DNA of 64,000 nucleotides. It comes from Aromatoleum buckelii (GTDB lineage Bacteria > Pseudomonadota > Gammaproteobacteria > Burkholderiales > Rhodocyclaceae). Both the position numbers and the translations under genes were made by a program. The notes under the pieces were generated by a model. It worked only from the letters and a program-made list of their open reading frames with translations, had not been told where the DNA came from and did not search any database. Below are positions 29,881 to 42,324 of this stretch, piece after piece; position 1 is the stretch's first letter; each line of letters begins with the position of its first letter. The stretch covers positions 186,001 to 250,000 of the forward strand of contig NZ_WTVH02000010.1 in the NCBI RefSeq assembly GCF_012910785.2, in the 5' to 3' direction.

Positions 29881-30384
29881 TCATCCGCCGGACACGATGA
29901 TGCGGCCTACCATCCCTGCTTGGTAATGGCCGGGAATCAGGCACGCGAAGTCAAACTCGCCCGGCCGATTGAAAGTCCAGATGATGTCGCCGCTTCCGCC
30001 GGGCGCCACGTGTGTCATCCATGGCTCGTCATGCTCCATTTCCGGGAACCGCACCATCAGATCGGCATGTTCGTCAAGCGCCGACTTGGTTCCGATCACC
30101 ATCTCGTGCATCACCTTCCCGGCATTGCGGTGCACGAACCGGATCGTCTCGCCCAGCCGCACTTGAATGCGGTCCGGGTCGAAACGCATCTGATCGGTCA
30201 TCGTCACCCGGAGCGTGCGAGTCACTGCGTCCGCGTCCCCGGCGATGCCCCAGTCCTGCTGTTCCTTGTTGACCGGTGCCGCGTTCCTTGCGTGCGTCGC
30301 CTCTCCGTGAGCGATTGCCGCGCCGCCCGAAAGCAGGGAGACGGTTACGAGGGCAGCGGCCAGGAAACTGTTGCGAATCTTCAT
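29881..30384 (-). CDS. Periplasmic cupredoxin-like copper protein
   Basis: 167 residues with a cleavable signal peptide (MKIRNSFLAAALVTVSLLSG, cut after AIAHG or nearby). The plastocyanin/azurin-like fold has type-1 copper ligands: His in KVMHEMVIG, and Cys, His and Met in FACLIPGHYQAGM. Related proteins carry electrons or buffer copper in the periplasm. It stands alone in its direction after a long gap and is convergent with the DUF305 remnant, which supports a copper-handling past for this spot. Confidence 0.9.
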   Translation of the reverse strand: MKIRNSFLAAALVTVSLLSGGAAIAHGEATHARNAAPVNKEQQDWGIAGDADAVTRTLRVTMTDQMRFDPDRIQVRLGETIRFVHRNAGKVMHEMVIGTKSALDEHADLMVRFPEMEHDEPWMTHVAPGGSGDIIWTFNRPGEFDFACLIPGHYQAGMVGRIIVSGG

Positions 30385-33526: not shown

Positions 33527-33787
33527 ATCGCCAAGGAAGAACTGATCGAAATGAGCGGGATGGTAGTTGAAGTCCTGCCCGACTCCCGTTTCCGTGTCAC
33601 CCTCGACAACGGCCACAACCTCGTCGCCTACTCCGCGGGCAAGATGCGCAAGCACCATATCCGCATCCTGTGCGGCGACAAAGTTTCACTTGAACTTTCC
33701 CCTTACGACCTGAGCAAGGGGCGCATCACTTTCCGCCACATCGAAGGTCGCGGGCCTCTCGGTCCCCAGCAGCGGCGCAGACGCTGA
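33527..33787 (+). CDS. infA: Translation initiation factor IF-1, apparent ATC start
   Basis: 86 residues if read from 33527. The body ([47 protein letters not shown]) is an S1-like IF-1 with an Arg-rich tail beyond the usual 72 residues. Homologues begin M-A-K-E-E-L; here that Met codon is ATC, placed 8 bases after GGAG (33515-33518). The only upstream ATG in frame, at 33482, would add [15 protein letters not shown], unlike IF-1, with a poorly spaced ribosome site and with the better site inside the coding sequence. Either ATC is the true start or a base has changed. IF-1 blocks the A site and helps IF-3 select start codons. Confidence 0.82.
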
Positions 33788-33862
33788 TCGCGTCCCGCAT
33801 TCAGGACCTGGCTGCCTGAAGGCGTCGGGGCGGCGGACTGCTGTCCTCGCCCGTACCCCGTT

Positions 33863-35248
33863 TCACCAGATAAAGAACATTGTCACCCACGGCGCAACCG
33901 CGCCTGCGGCGGCGGTGCAAAAAGCGAGCAGCGCAGTGGCCCGGCGCAGGCCGGACGATACCGTACGCCGCACCTGCAGCGCGCCGAGCACCAGGCTGGC
34001 TCCGGCAGCCACGGCGAGCAGCAGTCCGCGCACCAGCGGCAGGTTCGCGAGCACGACGCCTTCGGCACTCAGCAGCGTGACGGTCAGCGCCGACAGGCCG
34101 AGGAACACGCCGACGCCGCCGAGCGGAATCAGTGCGTAGGCGAGCCGCCGGTGCGCCGCCGCGTCGCCGAGGAGCCCCGCGGCGGCACGCAGCCACAGCG
34201 TGATCCAGCCGCCGAGAACGAGCGCGGTCGTGCCGATATAGCCGAGGATCATCAGGCCGTCGAGCCACGTGAACACGTCGTTCGCTTCGGGGTAATGCGT
34301 CAGCACCCACCACGGAATGTCGCTGTCGAGCAGCGCGAAGGCGTCGCGCTCGACGAGCCATTCGGCGGCAGCGAGCTTGGCCTGGACGAACCATGGCGAC
34401 GCCGACCACTGGAACGCGCCGATAGCGGTGCCGATGACGCCGAACACCAGCAGGCGCGCTTCCCATACGTCGGTTTCGTCGCTGCGCAGTCTCGCGACTT
34501 CGGCACCGGGCATGCGCCCGACCAGCTGCACCGCGTCGCGGTGACCGCTGCAGCGCCCGCACATGTGGCACTCGGCAGCGCTCTCCATGCGGCGAATATC
34601 GACCAGCGGTGCACAGTTGATCGGGATCACCCGCTTTGCCGGATGCGCCTGCCACGCTTCGCGATCGGTGCGGAAATGCACCGGCGCGAGCCGCGCGAGC
34701 AGGCCGAACACGCCGCTCACCGGGCACAGGTGCCGACACCACACGCGCTTGCCGCGGCCGTATACGAGGCCGACTGCAGCCGCCGCGACAGTCGAGCCGC
34801 CGAGCACGAGCAGCACGGCTTTCGGGTATTCATACACGCTGACGAGCTGGCCATACACCGTCGTCGCGAGGAACGCGACGAACGGCCAGCCGCCCCACTT
34901 GATCCAGCGCGGTACCGGACGCCCGAGGCCGACGCGCGACGCCTGCTCGGCGACGAAGCCTTCAGGGCACAGTACGCCGCACCACACGCGCCCCATCAGC
35001 ATCATCGACACCAGCACGAACGGCCACCAGATGCCCCAGAACACGAACTGTGCGAACAATGTCAAGTTGTCCCAGACGTGCGCGCCGGACTCGGGCAGCG
35101 GCAGGAAAGCCGGCGTGACGACGAGGAAAACGTAGGCGACGAGCACTGCCCACTGGACCCCGACGATCCAGTTGCGGTGACGGCGCATCAGGTCGCCGAG
35201 CCGGGCGAGCCGCGGCGGGCGCATTGCGGGCAGACTGCAGCTCGTCAT
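33863..35248 (-). CDS. ftrD: FtrD-like membrane polyferredoxin of the ferrous iron transporter
   Basis: 461 residues with about eight to ten transmembrane segments and Cys clusters WCGVLCPEG, WCRHLCPVSG and CHMCGRCSG, the pattern of NapH-type 4Fe-4S membrane proteins. It ends the ftr operon, its start 2 bases after the ftrC stop. In Bordetella FtrABCD the FtrD protein is thought to accept electrons from iron oxidation during uptake. Start ATG 35248. Confidence 0.88.
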   Translation of the reverse strand: MTSCSLPAMRPPRLARLGDLMRRHRNWIVGVQWAVLVAYVFLVVTPAFLPLPESGAHVWDNLTLFAQFVFWGIWWPFVLVSMMLMGRVWCGVLCPEGFVAEQASRVGLGRPVPRWIKWGGWPFVAFLATTVYGQLVSVYEYPKAVLLVLGGSTVAAAAVGLVYGRGKRVWCRHLCPVSGVFGLLARLAPVHFRTDREAWQAHPAKRVIPINCAPLVDIRRMESAAECHMCGRCSGHRDAVQLVGRMPGAEVARLRSDETDVWEARLLVFGVIGTAIGAFQWSASPWFVQAKLAAAEWLVERDAFALLDSDIPWWVLTHYPEANDVFTWLDGLMILGYIGTTALVLGGWITLWLRAAAGLLGDAAAHRRLAYALIPLGGVGVFLGLSALTVTLLSAEGVVLANLPLVRGLLLAVAAGASLVLGALQVRRTVSSGLRRATALLAFCTAAAGAVAPWVTMFFIW

Positions 35249-35250
35249 GC

Positions 35251-36063
35251 TCAGGTTCTCCGCGGCGGGCGGCCGAACCATGCGAACAGCGCCCAGTAGC
35301 CGAACCACGTGATCAGCACGGTCAGCGACGGCTGCGCGCGGTAGCCGGCGAACGCCGCGGCGATGCCGCCGGCCGTGCTGCCGTCGGCGAGCAGCGCGGA
35401 GCTGTCCCATACCGGCTCGAGCAGCGGCGGCAGCCATTCCATGTTGATCAGCCGTTCGACGCCCGACACGAGCAGCGCGGCCGCGAGCAAACACAGCACG
35501 ATCTCGGTCGCGCCGAAGAACACCCGCCTCGGCAGCCAGTGCGAGCCGCGCTGAATCAGCCACGCGGTGGCCAGCGCCAGCACGAAGCCGAGGCCGGCGC
35601 CGGCGAGCATGCGGGTCAGCGTGTCGCCGGACTGCTCGACGCCGAGGCCGTACAGGAACAGCACGGTTTCGGCCCCTTCGCGGCCGACTGCGATCGCCGC
35701 GAGCAGCGCGACCGACACTCCGCCCGCGGCGTCGGCGGCTTTCGCCAGCCCCGCTTCGAGCTCGCGCTTCATGTGCCGCCCGTGCGCACGCATCCACAAC
35801 ACCATGTGCGTGATCAGGCCGGCGGCGACGATGACGATGGCGGCCTGGAACGCCTCCAGCGCGTCGCCGGCGAGCTGGCTCTGCAGTCCGAGCATCGCCA
35901 GCGCGAGCACGCCGGCGAGCAGCAGCCCGCCGGCCACGCCCGCCCACAGGTGATGGACGCCGATACGGCCGTTGCCGCGCGTGCGAATCCACGCGTAGAG
36001 GATGCTGATCACCAGGATCGCTTCGACGCTCTCGCGCCACACGATGAAGAGCGAATTACCCAT
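35251..36063 (-). CDS. ftrC: FtrC-like iron permease (FTR1 family)
   Basis: 270-residue inner-membrane permease with seven hydrophobic segments. Iron-binding RExxE motifs are RESVE (10-14) and REGAE (128-132), the FTR1 signature. It takes iron delivered by the periplasmic partners FtrA and FtrB. Lies between ftrB and ftrD with spacings of 20 and 2 bases. Confidence 0.94.
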   Translation of the reverse strand: MGNSLFIVWRESVEAILVISILYAWIRTRGNGRIGVHHLWAGVAGGLLLAGVLALAMLGLQSQLAGDALEAFQAAIVIVAAGLITHMVLWMRAHGRHMKRELEAGLAKAADAAGGVSVALLAAIAVGREGAETVLFLYGLGVEQSGDTLTRMLAGAGLGFVLALATAWLIQRGSHWLPRRVFFGATEIVLCLLAAALLVSGVERLINMEWLPPLLEPVWDSSALLADGSTAGGIAAAFAGYRAQPSLTVLITWFGYWALFAWFGRPPRRT

Positions 36064-36083
36064 GATGTTTCCTGAATCTGCGG

Positions 36084-36422
36084 TTACTGGGCGACGAACC
36101 GGCCTTTTGCCGTGTCGGGGTGGAACTCGCCGAAGAACGGGTAGGTGCCGGGCTTCAGCGGCGGAAAGATGGTGCTGCGCGTCACGCCCGGCGCGACGAC
36201 GAGTTCCTTGAACGGGCTCGTCGTCTCGAACTCTTCGGGGCCGGCGTTGCGGTTCGTCAGCTGCAAGCGAAAGCGGGTGTTGGCCGGCACCGTTATCGTG
36301 TCGGGCGTGAAGCGGCCGTTTTCGGCCACGACTTCGAACGTCGGCAATTCGGCTTGCACGGCGCTCGACGCCGTCAGGGCCAGGATGCCCAGTACACGGG
36401 CGAGCAGGCGCGGAACAATCAC
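36084..36422 (-). CDS. ftrB: FtrB-like periplasmic cupredoxin-domain protein
   Basis: 112 residues from a GTG at 36422 (AGGA 10 bases upstream), signal peptide cut near VQAEL, then one cupredoxin domain (EVVAENGRFTPDTITVPANT, PGTYPFFGEFHPDTAKG). In FtrABCD systems FtrB is proposed to oxidise Fe(II) before the permease step. It heads the ftrBCD block and lies just after an internal terminator. Confidence 0.88.
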   Translation of the reverse strand: MIVPRLLARVLGILALTASSAVQAELPTFEVVAENGRFTPDTITVPANTRFRLQLTNRNAGPEEFETTSPFKELVVAPGVTRSTIFPPLKPGTYPFFGEFHPDTAKGRFVAQ

Positions 36423-36451
36423 GATCGGGAATTCCTGTGCTGAAAATGACG

Positions 36452-36470
36452 AAAACCCCGCGCGGCGGGG
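36452..36470 (-). terminator. Terminator-like hairpin inside the ftr operon
   Basis: CCCCGC-N3-GCGGGG stem (36456-36470); on the minus strand it is followed by TTTT. It lies between the porin stop and the ftrB start, so it would reduce transcription into ftrBCD relative to ftrA and the porin. Confidence 0.6.
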
Positions 36471-36500
36471 AGCCGGGCGGGGCAGGAGGGGCGTGCAGGT

Positions 36501-37985
36501 CTAGAACGCATACAGCCCGCGCAGGCCGACGACGGTGATCGCTTTCGCGTCCGGGTCGGCGGCAGCGCGACGCACGTATTGCAGGTCCGGCGTCAGCGAC
36601 AGCTGGTCGTTCAGGTGCCAGCGGTAATACAGCTCGGCAACCTGCTCGGCGCCACGCGCGGTGAAGCCGAAATCGTCGAGCAGCGGGGCGGCGTCGCGGA
36701 ATTCGTCGCTCGCGCGCAGCCAGCCCCACGCGAACCCGACGCTGTCGGCGCCGCGTCCCCAGGCGTTGCCGGCGATCTCGGTGCCGATCGTCACGGCGCG
36801 GTCGAACGCCACCTTGCTGCTGCTCGACTGGCCAAAGCGCGCGAACAGCGTCACGTCCTCATGCACGCGCTGGTCGACGCTCGCGCCCCAGCCGCTGGCG
36901 CTGCGGGTCGTCGCGTCGAAACCTTCGTGCTGGCCGTTGCGCCACGCATACAGGCGGTACGTGCCGTCGAAGCCGTGGCTCTTGCGCCCGTACTCCAGCT
37001 GGCCGATGACGAACGGCTTGTTGAAGCTGCGCCCGAAGCGCGCGCCTTCGCCGGCGCCGAACGCCGCGATCGACGCCTGCCACCAGTCGGGCGCGCCGCT
37101 TTCGTTGCGGTACGCGAAGCGCAGGCCGGGCGTGAAACCGTAGCTGTCGGCGCCGACCCCGCCGCCCGAGTCGAGCATCGGGTTATGCACGAAGACGTTG
37201 TTGAGGAACTTCTCGGCTTCGTTGTCGGCGATCGCGTTCTGGTCGAAGAACACGAACGGGTCCATCTTGCCGACGGTGAGCTGCAGGCTGTGCGGCGACT
37301 CCGCGCTGTCGCCGAGCGGCGTCGTCAGCTGGTACCAGGCCTGCGCGACGATCACGTAGGTTTCCTCCGAGCCGCCACCGGTCTGGAACGCGAGGCTGTT
37401 GAACGCGGCGGTGAACGTGGGCTTCAGGCCGGTGAAGCTGTCGCCTTGGCCCATCCGCAACTGCGTGTAGAACTCGCCTTGGCCCCGGCCGATATCGCCC
37501 GCCGGCAACGTGATGCCGAGGTCGCCGCGCCATGACAGCTGCGATTCGTGCCTGCCGTCTTCGCGCGCGTCACCGTCGATCCGCTGCGCGACGGTAGCGA
37601 CGCTGCCTTCGACCGCGATGCCATCGAGAGCCTCCGCCAGGCGCGACGGTGCGCCCATCGCATTGGTCCGTTCCTCGATCGCCTTGAGCCGGATCGCGAG
37701 CTCCGGTTCACGCTCGCTGATGCGGTCGCTGCCGAGGCTCGTGGCGAGATCCTGGTTCGCCTGTTCCAGCGCTTCGACGCGCTGTGCGAGTGCCGGAGCG
37801 GGCGTTGCAGTCGCCGCGAGCCGTGCTTCGAGTTCGCTGTTGCGCTGCTCGAGTTTCTCGATCCGTTCGGCGAGCCGCCTGAGTTCGGCAAGCACCTTGT
37901 CCGGGGCGGGCGCGGCGTGGCCCGCACCGGTTGCGCCCAGCACCGCGAGCGCGACGGCGGTCCGGGCGAATCGGGTCAGCGCCAT
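36501..37985 (-). CDS. Outer-membrane porin with N-terminal coiled coil, inserted in the ftr operon
   Basis: 494 residues: signal peptide (MALTRFARTAVALAVLG, cut after GHAAP), a coiled coil (about 30-85; LAELRRLAERIEKLEQRNSE), then a beta-barrel ending in aromatic VVGLRGLYAF. This is the layout of carbohydrate/OprB-like porins with a periplasmic coiled coil. Its ATG follows the ftrA stop by one base (TGAAATG), so it is coupled to ftrA. A porin is not part of the described FtrABCD set; here it may admit iron or an iron chelate across the outer membrane. Confidence 0.85.
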   Translation of the reverse strand: MALTRFARTAVALAVLGATGAGHAAPAPDKVLAELRRLAERIEKLEQRNSELEARLAATATPAPALAQRVEALEQANQDLATSLGSDRISEREPELAIRLKAIEERTNAMGAPSRLAEALDGIAVEGSVATVAQRIDGDAREDGRHESQLSWRGDLGITLPAGDIGRGQGEFYTQLRMGQGDSFTGLKPTFTAAFNSLAFQTGGGSEETYVIVAQAWYQLTTPLGDSAESPHSLQLTVGKMDPFVFFDQNAIADNEAEKFLNNVFVHNPMLDSGGGVGADSYGFTPGLRFAYRNESGAPDWWQASIAAFGAGEGARFGRSFNKPFVIGQLEYGRKSHGFDGTYRLYAWRNGQHEGFDATTRSASGWGASVDQRVHEDVTLFARFGQSSSSKVAFDRAVTIGTEIAGNAWGRGADSVGFAWGWLRASDEFRDAAPLLDDFGFTARGAEQVAELYYRWHLNDQLSLTPDLQYVRRAAADPDAKAITVVGLRGLYAF

Positions 37986-37986
37986 T

Positions 37987-38535
37987 TCAGTAGCCGCCTT
38001 TCTTGCCGACGCCGACGTACGTGAACTCGTTCTCGACCTCGAACTCTTTGAACCACGGCCGCACGCCCGTCGCCCGGTCGGTGTGGCGGCCGAAGTGGCT
38101 GCCATGGTGGGCGGCGCCCGGCGGCAGGATCGTGTATTTGACCTTGTACTTGCCCGGGCCCGCGAGCTTGATGTTGTCGCCGTAATGCGGGCCGTCGCTT
38201 GCGACCATCGGCATGAACTCGCCCGACTGTTTCCAGTCGCTGCCGAGCTTCGCGATCTCGAACTTGACCGTCAGGTACGGAATCCAGCTGCCTTCCTCGA
38301 AGCCGTTCGGGTTGTTCGCCAGCGCGCGAATGTCGGCCTCGATGTGGATGTCGGACTCCGATGCCTTCTTCATCATGCCGTCCGGTTCCATCTCGATGGG
38401 CTGGAGATAGACGGCTGCGATTTCCATACCGTCGCGGTGCTGCGGCGTGCCGATGGGATATTCCAGGGCATGGGTGGCGAACGACAGGCTGGCCAGCGCG
38501 GCGACGGCGAGGGGGCGAAGCGGGAAACGGTGCAT
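37987..38535 (-). CDS. ftrA: FtrA/P19-type periplasmic iron-binding protein
   Basis: 182 residues, signal peptide ending near THALE, then the Tp34/P19 fold with Met and His metal ligands (PIEMEPDGMMKK, SDIHIEADI, GAAHHGSHFGRHTD). P19 relatives bind copper and iron and feed FTR1 permeases. Start ATG 38535 with AAAGGA upstream. It is the first gene of the ftr operon and has a Fur-box-like sequence upstream. Confidence 0.92.
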   Translation of the reverse strand: MHRFPLRPLAVAALASLSFATHALEYPIGTPQHRDGMEIAAVYLQPIEMEPDGMMKKASESDIHIEADIRALANNPNGFEEGSWIPYLTVKFEIAKLGSDWKQSGEFMPMVASDGPHYGDNIKLAGPGKYKVKYTILPPGAAHHGSHFGRHTDRATGVRPWFKEFEVENEFTYVGVGKKGGY

Positions 38536-38595
38536 CGGGAATCCTTTCGAAAATTGGAATGGGCAGGATGCGGCACCCATGAGCGGAATGTGTGA

Positions 38596-38614
38596 GAATA
38601 ATAAAGATAATGAG
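38596..38614. promoter_or_regulatory. Candidate Fur box upstream of ftrA
   Basis: AATAATAAAGATAATGAGA, 61-79 bases before the ftrA start, resembles repeated NAT(A/T)AT Fur units but is an imperfect match. The remainder of the 313-base spacer (38536-38848) shows no gene. Confidence 0.4.
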
Positions 38615-38848
38615 AGTTGTTCGCAATAGCCAATTTGAGATTCGCTGTCGTGGAACGAATATCCCGCCCGGGAGGAACGACGGTGGCAGGACTCGGGACG
38701 GGCGGCACGAACGGCGCCGCCGGAATCGCGCCTCAGCCCCGTCGATCAGGCTCGGAATGCGTCGCCGCGTGAGGTTTGGATGCCAGGGGGCAGGCCTTGG
38801 GCGAGGCTTGGCGGTGAAGGGGCGGGCGCAGCTGGTCAGTCCCCGGCG

Positions 38849-40342
38849 TCATCGCTGGGATACATGCCGGATGTTTTCGTCGGTGCTGGAAGCTGCCGGA
38901 CCCGAGTGCTCCCATCCGCCGCCGAGCGCCTTGAAGAGGTCGAGCGCGGCGGCGAGCCGCGCGAAGCGCAGCTGTGCGAGCCGGTCCTGCGCCTGGAACA
39001 GCGTGCGCTGTGCGTCGAGCACCGCGAGGAGGTCGTCGGCGCCTTCGCGGTAGCGCAGCTCGGCGAGCCGCAGCGCGCGCGCCGCCTCGTCGCGGATCAG
39101 CTGCTGGGTGTCTTCCTCGCGGCGGTTGCGGTCCGCGTTGCCGAGCGCGTCTTCGACCTCCTTCAGCGCGGTGAAGATCGCGGCGCGGTAATTCTCGACG
39201 AATTCGCGCCGGCGTGAGCGCGCTGACTCGACGTCGCCGCGCAGCCGCCCGCCGTCGAACAGCGTCTGCGCAAGGCTCGTGCTGAGCGCGACGCTATTCG
39301 ACGGGTTCGCGAGCGACAGCAGCGCCGTGCTCGCCAAGCCGGCTGAGCCCGAAAGCTGCACTGCCGGCAACAGCGCGGCGCGCGCGGCGGCGACGTCGGC
39401 GTCCGCCCCGGCGAGCTGCGCTTCGGCGCTGGCAAGGTCCGGGCGGCGCACCAGCAGGTCGGCAGGCAGGCCTGGGGCGACTTCGGGAATCGCGAGCGTG
39501 GCGAGCGTTTCGCCGTTGACGCCGAAGTCCTGCGGGACGCGGCCGAGCAGCACGGCGAGCGCGGTGAGCGTCTGGCGCTCCTGGTTTTCGAGCGGCAGCA
39601 GCGCGGCGCGCTGCGCGAGCACGATGCCGCGCTGGCGACTGACGTCGAGCGCGGACGCGGCGCCATTGCGATAGCGGGCCTCGGCGATGTCGAACACGCG
39701 CTCGGCGATCGCGAGGTTGTCGCGCGCGATGTCGAGGCGGGCGCGGGTCGTGAGCAGCTGGAAATACGTGCTCGCGACGCCGGCGACGAGCGTCAGCCGC
39801 ACCGCGTCGAAGTCGTGGCGGGTCGCCGCAAGACTCGCGTCGGCGCCGGCGACGCCCGCGGCCAGCCTGCCCCACAGGTCGACTTCGTAGCTGACCGCGA
39901 GGCTCGCGCCCGACGATTCGCTGTCGATCGCACGTCCTCGGGCGGGCTCGGTGCGGCGCCAGTCGGTGTCGCCACCGATGGTGGCGAACGGTAGCAGCGT
40001 CGCGCCGGCGGTGCGTAACCGGATCTCGGCCTGGCGCACGCGTTCCGCCGCGATGCGGAAATCGGGGCTGCCGGCGAGCGCCTCACCGATCAGGCCTTCG
40101 AGCTGGTGCGACGAAAAACTGCGCCACCAGCCGGCGCCCGGTTGCATCGGGGCGGCGGGAACGGGCTCGGACCACCCCCCTGGCATCGTCAACGCGGGCC
40201 GCGTCGTCGGCTCGGTGATCGCGCAGCCAGCGGCGAGCAGCGCAACGACGGCGAGGAGCAAAGCGCGCCGTCCACGCCGGCCGGCTCGGGACGAGCCACC
40301 TGGCGGCGCGGGAAAGGAGGATGAGTGCATCGGGGATGTCAT
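38849..40342 (-). CDS. NodT-family outer-membrane efflux lipoprotein (TolC-like)
   Basis: 497 residues with lipobox LLAAGC near residue 40 and two outer-membrane efflux repeats (about 80-280 and 290-470), typical text [35 protein letters not shown] and [20 protein letters not shown]. It is the exit channel for the MacA-MacB pair: its ATG overlaps the macB stop as ATGA (another ATG lies at 40330). Confidence 0.93.
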
Positions 40343-42324
40343 TCCGAAGCGAGCGCGACGACCGGATCGAGGCGGGCTGCCTTGCGTGCCGGCAGGTAGC
40401 CGAAGACGAGGCCGGTCGCGAAGGCGCAGCCGAACGCGAGCAGCACCGGCGGCAGCGAGTAGACGATCGGCGTGTCGAAAGCTTCGATGATCGCCGCTGC
40501 GCCCAAGCCGACGACGACGCCGATGACGCCGCCGAGCGCCGAGACGACGAGCGCCTCGATGAGGAACTGCTGCAGGATGTTCTTCATCCGCGCGCCGGTC
40601 GCCATGCGGATGCCGATCTCGCGGGTGCGCTCGGTGACCGACACCAGCATGATGTTCATGACGCCGATGCCACCGACCAGCAGCGAGATCGCGGCGACGG
40701 TGCCGAGCAGCACTGTCAGCGTGTTCTGCGTTTCGGACACGCTCTCGATGACCGACGCCATGTTGCGGATCTGGAAGTCCTCGATGCCGCCGTGGCGTGC
40801 CTGCAACAGCTCGTGCACCGCCGCCTGCGTGTCGTCGATGGCGGCGACGTCCTCGACCGCGACCGTTGCGCTGCGCAGGTGGCGCTGACCGAACAGCCGC
40901 AGGCTGCCGGTCGAGTACGGCACGAAGATCACGTCGTCCTGATCGGTGCCCCACGGCGTCGCGCCCTGCGGGCCCATGACACCGAGCACCTGGAACATGA
41001 TGCTGTTGATGAGCACGAACTCGCCGACCGGATCGGCGTCGCCGAACAGCGCTTTCGCGACCGTCTGGCCGAGGACGGCAACCGTCGCATAGCTGCGTTC
41101 GTCGGCGGCGCTGAAGAACGTGCCGCGGGCGATCGGCCAGGCGCGCGCGAGCGTGAAGTCGGCGCCCGTCGCGTTCGCCGAAGTCCGGTGGTCGGCGTTG
41201 CCGGAGCGGATCGTCACCGTCGAGCTTTGCTCGGGAACTGCGGCGAGGACGTTGGGCAGGTCGGCGATCGCACGCACGTCGTCGAGCACGAGCGTCGCCG
41301 TGTCGCGGCCGCGCTGGTTCGGCGCACCGGGGCGCACCGTCAGCAGGTTGGTCCCCATCGAGCTGATGCGATCGACGACATCCTGCTTCGCGCCGTCGCC
41401 GATCGCGAGCATCGCGATGACCGCCGCGACGCCGATGACGATGCCGAGGAGCGTCAGCGCGGCACGAAAGATGTTTGCGCGCAGCGCCCGCAACGCAGTG
41501 CGCGCGGCTTCGACGATGTCGGACAGCGGCGAGCTGCGGTCGACGTGCGGCGCGAAGTCGGGCTCGACGCCGGGGCGCGGATGGGGGCCGGGGTCGGCGA
41601 CGATGTGGCCGTCGCGGATCTCGATGATGCGCCGGGCCTGCTCGGCGACTTCGCGCTCGTGCGTGATCAGGATGATCGTGTGGCCGTCGGCGGACAGCGT
41701 GTTGAGCAGCTGCATGACTTCGGCGCCGCTCTTGCTGTCGAGCGCGCCGGTCGGTTCGTCGGCGAGGATCACGCGACCGCCGTTCATCAGCGCCCGCGCG
41801 ATCGACACGCGCTGCTGCTGGCCGCCGGAGAGCTGGTTCGGCCGGTGTTCGATGCGCTCGCCCAGGCCGAGCGACGCGAGCAGTCCGGTGGCGCGCGCGT
41901 GGCGTTCGGCCGGTGGCATGCCCGAATAGACCGCCGGGACTTCGACGTTTTCGCGCGCGCTAGCGCCACCGATCAGATGGTAGCTCTGGAACACGAAGCC
42001 GAACGTCTCGCGCCGTAGCCGCGCGAGGTCGTCGCGATCGAACGCTGCGACGTCGCGGCCCATGAAGCGGTAGCTGCCGCTCGTCGGGCGGTCGAGGCAG
42101 CCGAGGATGTTCATCAGCGTCGATTTTCCCGACCCCGAGCTGCCGACGATCGCGACGAATTCGCCCGGCAGGATTGTCAGGTCGATGCCGTGCAGCACCT
42201 CGACGGTGAGCTCGGCGTTGCGGAACGTTTTCGTCACGCCGGACAGTTCGATCAGCGGCGTGCCCGCGGACGGACCGACTTTCGGCTCGGCGCCCAGCGC
42301 GCCGATGAACGGCTCGGTTTTCAT
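40339..42324 (-). CDS. macB: MacB-type ABC transporter (ATPase-permease fusion)
   Basis: 661 residues: N-terminal ATPase (about 20-245; Walker [10 protein letters not shown], signature LSGGQQQR, Walker [11 protein letters not shown]), a periplasmic MacB domain (about 300-520), and an FtsX-like C-terminal permease with TM segments near 280, 540, 590 and 625. It powers export of macrolides, peptides or siderophore-like compounds from the periplasm. Overlaps macA and the channel gene by 4 bases each (ATGA). Confidence 0.94.

Follow-up and report, generated by a model that had tools for sequence, protein, structure and literature searches.

The ftr locus of Aromatoleum buckelii raises the question of whether an outer-membrane porin can be an integral part of a bacterial iron importer. 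The locus lies in the stretch of DNA analysed here, the window (64,000 nucleotides; positions 186,001 to 250,000 of contig NZ_WTVH02000010.1), from a genome of 4.16 Mb, and operon coordinates are given as window positions. Five open reading frames, ftrA, a porin gene that we call ftrP, ftrB, ftrC and ftrD, are arranged head to tail on the minus strand from 38535 down to 33863. We are confident that together they encode a ferrous-iron importer of the FtrAPBCD type known from Rubrivivax. It is a known five-gene importer, and its only unusual local touch is a hairpin past the porin gene, which is lineage-specific and possibly regulatory.

The ftr operon and its published counterpart

The order A-P-B-C-D is found on a single strand in the window, and the arrangement typical of four-component systems, with ftrB directly after ftrA, is not found there, the porin gene lying between the two. 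The ftrP ATG is located 1 nucleotide past the ftrA TGA (a gap of +1), as an earlier note on this DNA had described. That note gave the extent of the locus as 33863–38614; the genes are indeed where it placed them, but the coding part stops at 38535, with the ATG of ftrA.

Comparisons with known proteins support the assignment of the individual genes. FtrA matches a solved FtrA-P19 chain (7r4z) in the PDB at 9.8e-78, and FtrB matches 8vuk at 4.4e-18, a structure identified as Brucella FtrB in PMC11966278. FtrC matches the EfeU model NF041756 at 4.1e-47 and FtrD matches TIGR02163 at 1.8e-7, both under the curated cut-offs. The host genome contains a single FtrA-family match and a single match to the FtrP porin.

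A five-component FtrAPBCD of Rubrivivax gelatinosus is already in print (excerpt of PMC11966278, after Steunou et al. 2022, doi 10.1111/febs.16476), and the FtrB proteins of four- and five-component systems are compared in the same article. The identity of P is not stated in PMC11966278, and the word porin is absent there. Both R. gelatinosus (L016) and R. benzoatilyticus (L015) have a porin, 50% identical to FtrP, in the P position between ftrA and ftrB. From this position in L016 we infer that the published P corresponds to the FtrP porin. The window shares its five-gene order with the R. gelatinosus system, from which it differs in the porin–ftrB gap; in L016 this is only ∼17 nucleotides, leaving no room for the window's hairpin. 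With the FtrABCD systems of Bordetella, Brucella and Burkholderia it shares the A, B, C and D families and their order, but these have four components (PMC11966278), and in the window the porin adds a fifth. The view that Ftr has no dedicated pore, on which the earlier note relied, is therefore out of date and holds only for four-component systems, and its suggestion of an undescribed extension of Ftr is not supported, given the excerpted account of FtrAPBCD and the porin of R. gelatinosus.

In the excerpts of PMC12542777 and PMC5681537 no porin is given as a component of Ftr, and PMC7283390 mentions neither Ftr nor a porin. The term "FtrP" in PMC6037834 was rejected as a porin, as it refers to primer names.

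Features of the ftr region, in window positions, with the profile matches or sequence properties that define them
Feature	Position	Strand	Description
ftrA	37987–38535	−	P19-type periplasmic Fe2+-binding protein, 182 residues; Iron_transport PF10634, 3.1e-66; ATG start
ftrP	36501–37985	−	Outer-membrane porin, 494 residues; OprB PF04966, 7.8e-27
ftrB	36084–36422	−	Cupredoxin-like periplasmic protein; Cupredoxin_1 PF13473, 1.1e-24; GTG start
ftrC	35251–36063	−	Inner-membrane permease, FTR1/EfeU type; FTR1 PF03239, 8.8e-35
ftrD	33863–35248	−	Polyferredoxin, inner membrane, NapH-like; Fer4_5 PF12801, 5.7e-12
Hairpin in ftrP/ftrB gap	36455–36483	−	7+4 pairs, one C-C mismatch, then T-run; terminator scan and folding
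Compact alternative hairpin	36456–36470	−	6 pairs, then TTTT; terminator scan
Fur-box-like site	38606–38624	−	13/19 to Fur consensus; overlaps promoter-like site
Promoter-like site	38626–38598	−	1 found, 0.3 expected

Linkage of ftrA and ftrP

Porin loci were collected from a scan of genome contigs, which gave 48, and from 200 sampled genomes of the host's order. After removal of the window's own copy, four repeats and partial and distant hits, 62 loci were counted, the window included. The porin start was taken as the start codon nearest the ftrA stop, and the FtrA query used in the searches carried two residues ahead of the Met. Because the loci were gathered with the porin as query, the linkage counts apply to porin-bearing operons.

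In these operons the association is very tight. An ftrA gene lies upstream of the porin in 59 of the 62 loci, and in each of these the porin start lies −1 to +4 nucleotides from the ftrA stop, a spacing seen in beta-, gamma- and alphaproteobacterial records. That the porin is part of the ftr operon is thus supported, since it follows ftrA in every locus holding both genes. The order ftrA-porin-ftrB, which the earlier note proposed to look for in related genomes, is readily found there, so that absence of the porin from other ftr operons, which would have spoken against the idea, does not apply. The complete order APBCD occurs in 41 of the 59 loci, the others being APBC (6), APD (6), APBD (4), APBDC (1) and AP (1); for 8 of these 18, less than 1.6 kb of the stretch remains past the porin hit, and they may be cut. 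The nearest named relative is Aromatoleum anaerobium, with a porin 94% and an FtrA 96% identical to those of the window.

The converse does not hold. In the order sample, 34 genomes have FtrA, 21 have a strong FtrP hit (E < 1e-20) and 16 have both, with the genes side by side in 16 of 16; the remaining 18 of the 34 FtrA genomes have no strong FtrP hit, which argues against a general dependence of Ftr on FtrP. Loci were fetched from 16 of these 18 genomes, and ftrB followed ftrA with no porin between in 16 of 16. A phylum-wide sample of 398 genomes (FtrA in 29, FtrP with E up to 1e-20 in 3, both in 2) was too thin to be of much use.

A tree of 75 FtrA proteins places the 59 with a porin and the 16 without on two sides of a single branch (support 89/75; 87% of bootstrap trees), a result valid for this sample only, in which the porin-bearing set came from the porin query and the porin-less set from one order. 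Because of this division, either one gain or one loss of the porin would fit the tree, and the insertion of the porin as an event, as the earlier note had it, is not demonstrated.

In six loci (L032, L037, L041, L043, L045 and L046) ftrA and the porin are accompanied by an ftrD hit, and neither ftrB nor ftrC is hit past the porin. The ftrD hit of L046 is a short piece only, and in L045 an ftrB-like hit lies upstream on the opposite strand. A search for FTR1 in ten genomes, these six included, gave no match in five, all of them from the six; the five are metagenome assemblies and may for that reason be incomplete.

Five stretches were also read that have a porin hit and lack FtrA; in three of them iron or peroxide genes are among the chosen neighbours. 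FtrP-like porins with no ftrA nearby are found in L109 (4730–6082; chosen neighbours a TonB receptor, a 2OG-Fe hydroxylase and an ABC transporter), L110 (4871–6358; a LysR regulator and a peroxidase) and L111 (4731–5888; ferritin and a GDT1 antiporter). The L111 porin is 33–36% identical, and its coiled coil is seemingly missing.

Structure and family of FtrP

FtrP belongs to the OprB family, scoring 95.1 bits against a curated cut-off of 22.9 (Pfam PF04966), and the same model is matched by 42 of 42 FtrP homologues (E up to 0.001). The AlphaFold2 model, built with 42 homologues, has a mean pLDDT (predicted local distance difference test) of 77.7 and a pTM (predicted template modelling score) of 0.69. 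It comprises three helices (residues 29–58, 65–85 and 95–119; helical part 29–119) followed by a 16-strand barrel (124–493). Confidence is low for the helices (pLDDT 48–72 per block of ten) and mostly 80–95 for the barrel.

The structural alignment covers the barrel (model residues 112–494). The closest match is P. putida OprB (4gey), with a Z-score of 35.1 and a root-mean-square deviation of 2.9 over 353 residues (19% identity), and the next match has a Z-score of 23.6. The N-terminal helical part of FtrP falls outside the region aligned with OprB. OmpM1 (8bym) and DcaP (6eus) also match the FtrP barrel (Z 21.3 and 22.2), although at 11 and 15% identity and over the barrel only. Both proteins carry N-terminal coiled coils. 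The helical part of FtrP, judged by eye, has a heptad-like, coiled-coil-like sequence, and it is present, with varying length, in the homologues compared by eye; L068 lacks it. FtrP is probably a trimer.

A well-conserved stretch, residues 242–284, sits between strands five and six, presumably the position of the constriction loop L3 in such barrels. Over 62 family sequences the charge of this loop averages −6.4, and over nine distant OprB relatives −4.9, with overlapping ranges, and this tells against reading the loop as a mark of iron transport; acidity at L3 was rejected as proof of it, distant OprB relatives being likewise acidic there, and the overlap means that the charge is no proof of cation selectivity either. 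The NCBIfam family of iron-uptake porins (NF033921, por_somb) was similarly rejected as a home for FtrP, which scores 18.3 against a cut-off of 100 bits, over residues 451–494 only. Among the 42 homologues, weak matches are seen to NF033921 in 15 and to the porin AaxA model in 22; FtrP itself falls far under the cut-off of the AaxA model.

These comparisons bear on whether FtrP is instead an OprB-family porin for sugars or for general use, which is expressed together with ftrA, carries no iron and only offsets lost permeability under iron stress. Such a role would agree with P. putida OprB being the best match in both fold and sequence, with the overlap in L3 acidity and with the weak matches to AaxA. 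It does not readily account for the constancy of the ftrA spacing, which extends to operons without ftrB and ftrC past the porin. A partial parallel also argues against it: in the excerpt of PMC2631029, Acidithiobacillus FeoP is an OprB-family, porin-like gene that precedes feoABC and has a predicted Fur box. Like ftrP, it is tied to a ferrous-iron importer; unlike ftrP, it is linked to feoABC and not to ftr, and it is likened here by its description in that excerpt, not by sequence. We consider a general porin unlikely, and passage of iron through FtrP, as suggested by the linkage, likely.

The hairpin between ftrP and ftrB

The second feature of the locus is the hairpin in the ftrP/ftrB gap, which has the shape of an intrinsic terminator (a GC-rich stem of 11 pairs with one mismatch and an immediate T-run), termination itself being predicted. 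RNA of positions 36440–36490 folds at −22.5 kcal/mol with a z-score of −4.34, and none of 200 shuffles equals it. The earlier note placed a hairpin at 36452–36470; a compact form is present there in the terminator scan, but folded in 26 nucleotides it is no better than chance (z −0.78; equalled by 45 of 200 shuffles), and the significant form is the longer one, at 36455–36483. No Rfam match at the gathering score was found in 33700–38900.

All 13 close relatives (L002–L014; Aromatoleum, Azoarcus, Denitromonas and kin), which reach down to 54% porin identity, have a GC-rich hairpin in this gap. Twelve of the 13 stems have at least 10 pairs, L002 having a compact stem of 6 pairs, and the nine relatives' hairpins that were folded with shuffles give z-scores of −2.1 to −4.5. 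Among the 41 APBCD loci the hairpin precedes ftrB in 14, including the window, and was not found in the other 27. Elsewhere, the scan of the other 48 loci covered 70 nucleotides past the porin stop and gave stem scores of 4 to 15 in 43 of them, compared with 17 for the window. L044 and L045 have a 13–14-pair hairpin within this distance, the hairpins of L015, L016 and L023 lie inside ftrB, judging by the short gaps, and that of L048 is located further on. The strong hairpin of L045 (Paramagnetospirillum caucaseum), between the porin (stop 7431) and ftrD, is unlike the Aromatoleum hairpin in sequence.

Two findings count against the reading proposed for the hairpin. At least four T follow the stem only in the window and L002–L009, on the Aromatoleum/Azoarcus side; L011 has three, and in L010, L012, L013 and L014 no T-run stands directly behind the stem. 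Covariation was also rejected as proof of the hairpin: 8 of the 14 hairpins share one frame, and 98.8% of their cells pair, a value reached by 214 of 500 shuffles. Support for the hairpin therefore comes from its stability and its place.

The hairpin could in principle be a chance product of GC-rich DNA. Terminator-like sites are not rare in themselves, as 6 are found in 33600–38900 and 3.1 ± 1.8 in shuffled sequence; covariation gives no signal, and the L002 stem score of 12 lies within the range of unrelated loci. Chance does not, however, explain the presence of a hairpin between the two genes in every close relative, nor z-scores of −2.1 to −4.5 in 10 of 11 folded stretches, the exception being the window's compact form, and we regard it as very improbable. 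A credible, though not favoured, alternative is that the hairpin is a 3′ structure that protects mRNA, or a processing boundary, and no terminator. The four relatives that keep the stem without an immediate T-run are consistent with this, but the T-runs of the window and L002–L009 resemble those of intrinsic terminators.

Some effect of the hairpin on expression seems rather probable. Partial termination or mRNA protection, yielding more FtrA and FtrP than FtrB, FtrC and FtrD, is plausible from the sequence, and a role in stoichiometric control, as the earlier note envisaged, is possible, although the hairpin is confined to close relatives.

Upstream region and neighbouring genes

The Fur-like site of the window is equalled by ∼1.5% of Markov-sampled sequences, scored against the Fur consensus. 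By the same consensus, a Fur-like site of at least 13/19 is found in 29 of 48 upstream regions, and in 30 of 48 the site is matched by no more than 5% of sampled sequences. In the other 18, which include Rubrivivax L015 and L016, the sites are no better than ∼5% of sampled sequences, and this speaks against the Fur control proposed below.

The genome has three matches to the eIF-1a family, of which one, a gene for an IF-1-like protein (33527–33787, plus strand), is convergent with ftrD. What we take to be the position of the first Met of this IF-1-like protein reads ATC (33527–33529), 8 nucleotides past GGAG, and the same is seen in L002; translation may begin at a rare start codon or at an ATG further upstream. 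Upstream of ftrA, 38849–42324 on the minus strand holds reading frames that presumably encode a MacB-type ABC exporter and an outer-membrane efflux protein. At 29881–30384, also on the minus strand and ∼3.5 kb past the operon, is what we take to be a secreted plastocyanin-like protein, possibly copper-binding.

Proposed mechanism and implications

In the mechanism that we propose, iron shortage would cause Fur to leave the promoter ahead of ftrA, and Fe2+ would enter the periplasm through FtrP. There FtrA, the P19 protein, would catch it, oxidation would take place at a copper site of FtrA, FtrB or both, and the FTR1 permease FtrC would carry iron inward while FtrD handles electrons. Because the ftrA stop and the ftrP start lie within a few bases, a geometry that suggests coupled translation, pore and catcher would be made together. 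In the host genus and its near relatives, the hairpin past ftrP would either partly stop transcription or shield the ftrAP message from 3′ decay, and the products of ftrAP would then exceed those of ftrBCD.

A bolder version, which we consider quite improbable, takes FtrA and FtrP as a conserved core. The coiled coil would form a trimeric stalk in the periplasm that docks FtrA, so that Fe2+ passes directly from pore to catcher; in operons without ftrB and ftrC past the porin this core would feed another inner-membrane permease, and in the window's lineage the hairpin would keep pore and catcher in excess over permease.

The analysis assigns a supposedly new arrangement to a system already in print and broadens the comparative base of that system with the tight spacing of ftrA and ftrP, the variants without ftrB or ftrC and the lineage-specific hairpin. 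The crossing of the outer membrane by free Fe2+ is often attributed to general porins. With a porin tied so closely to an iron catcher, a dedicated route for Fe2+ becomes testable.

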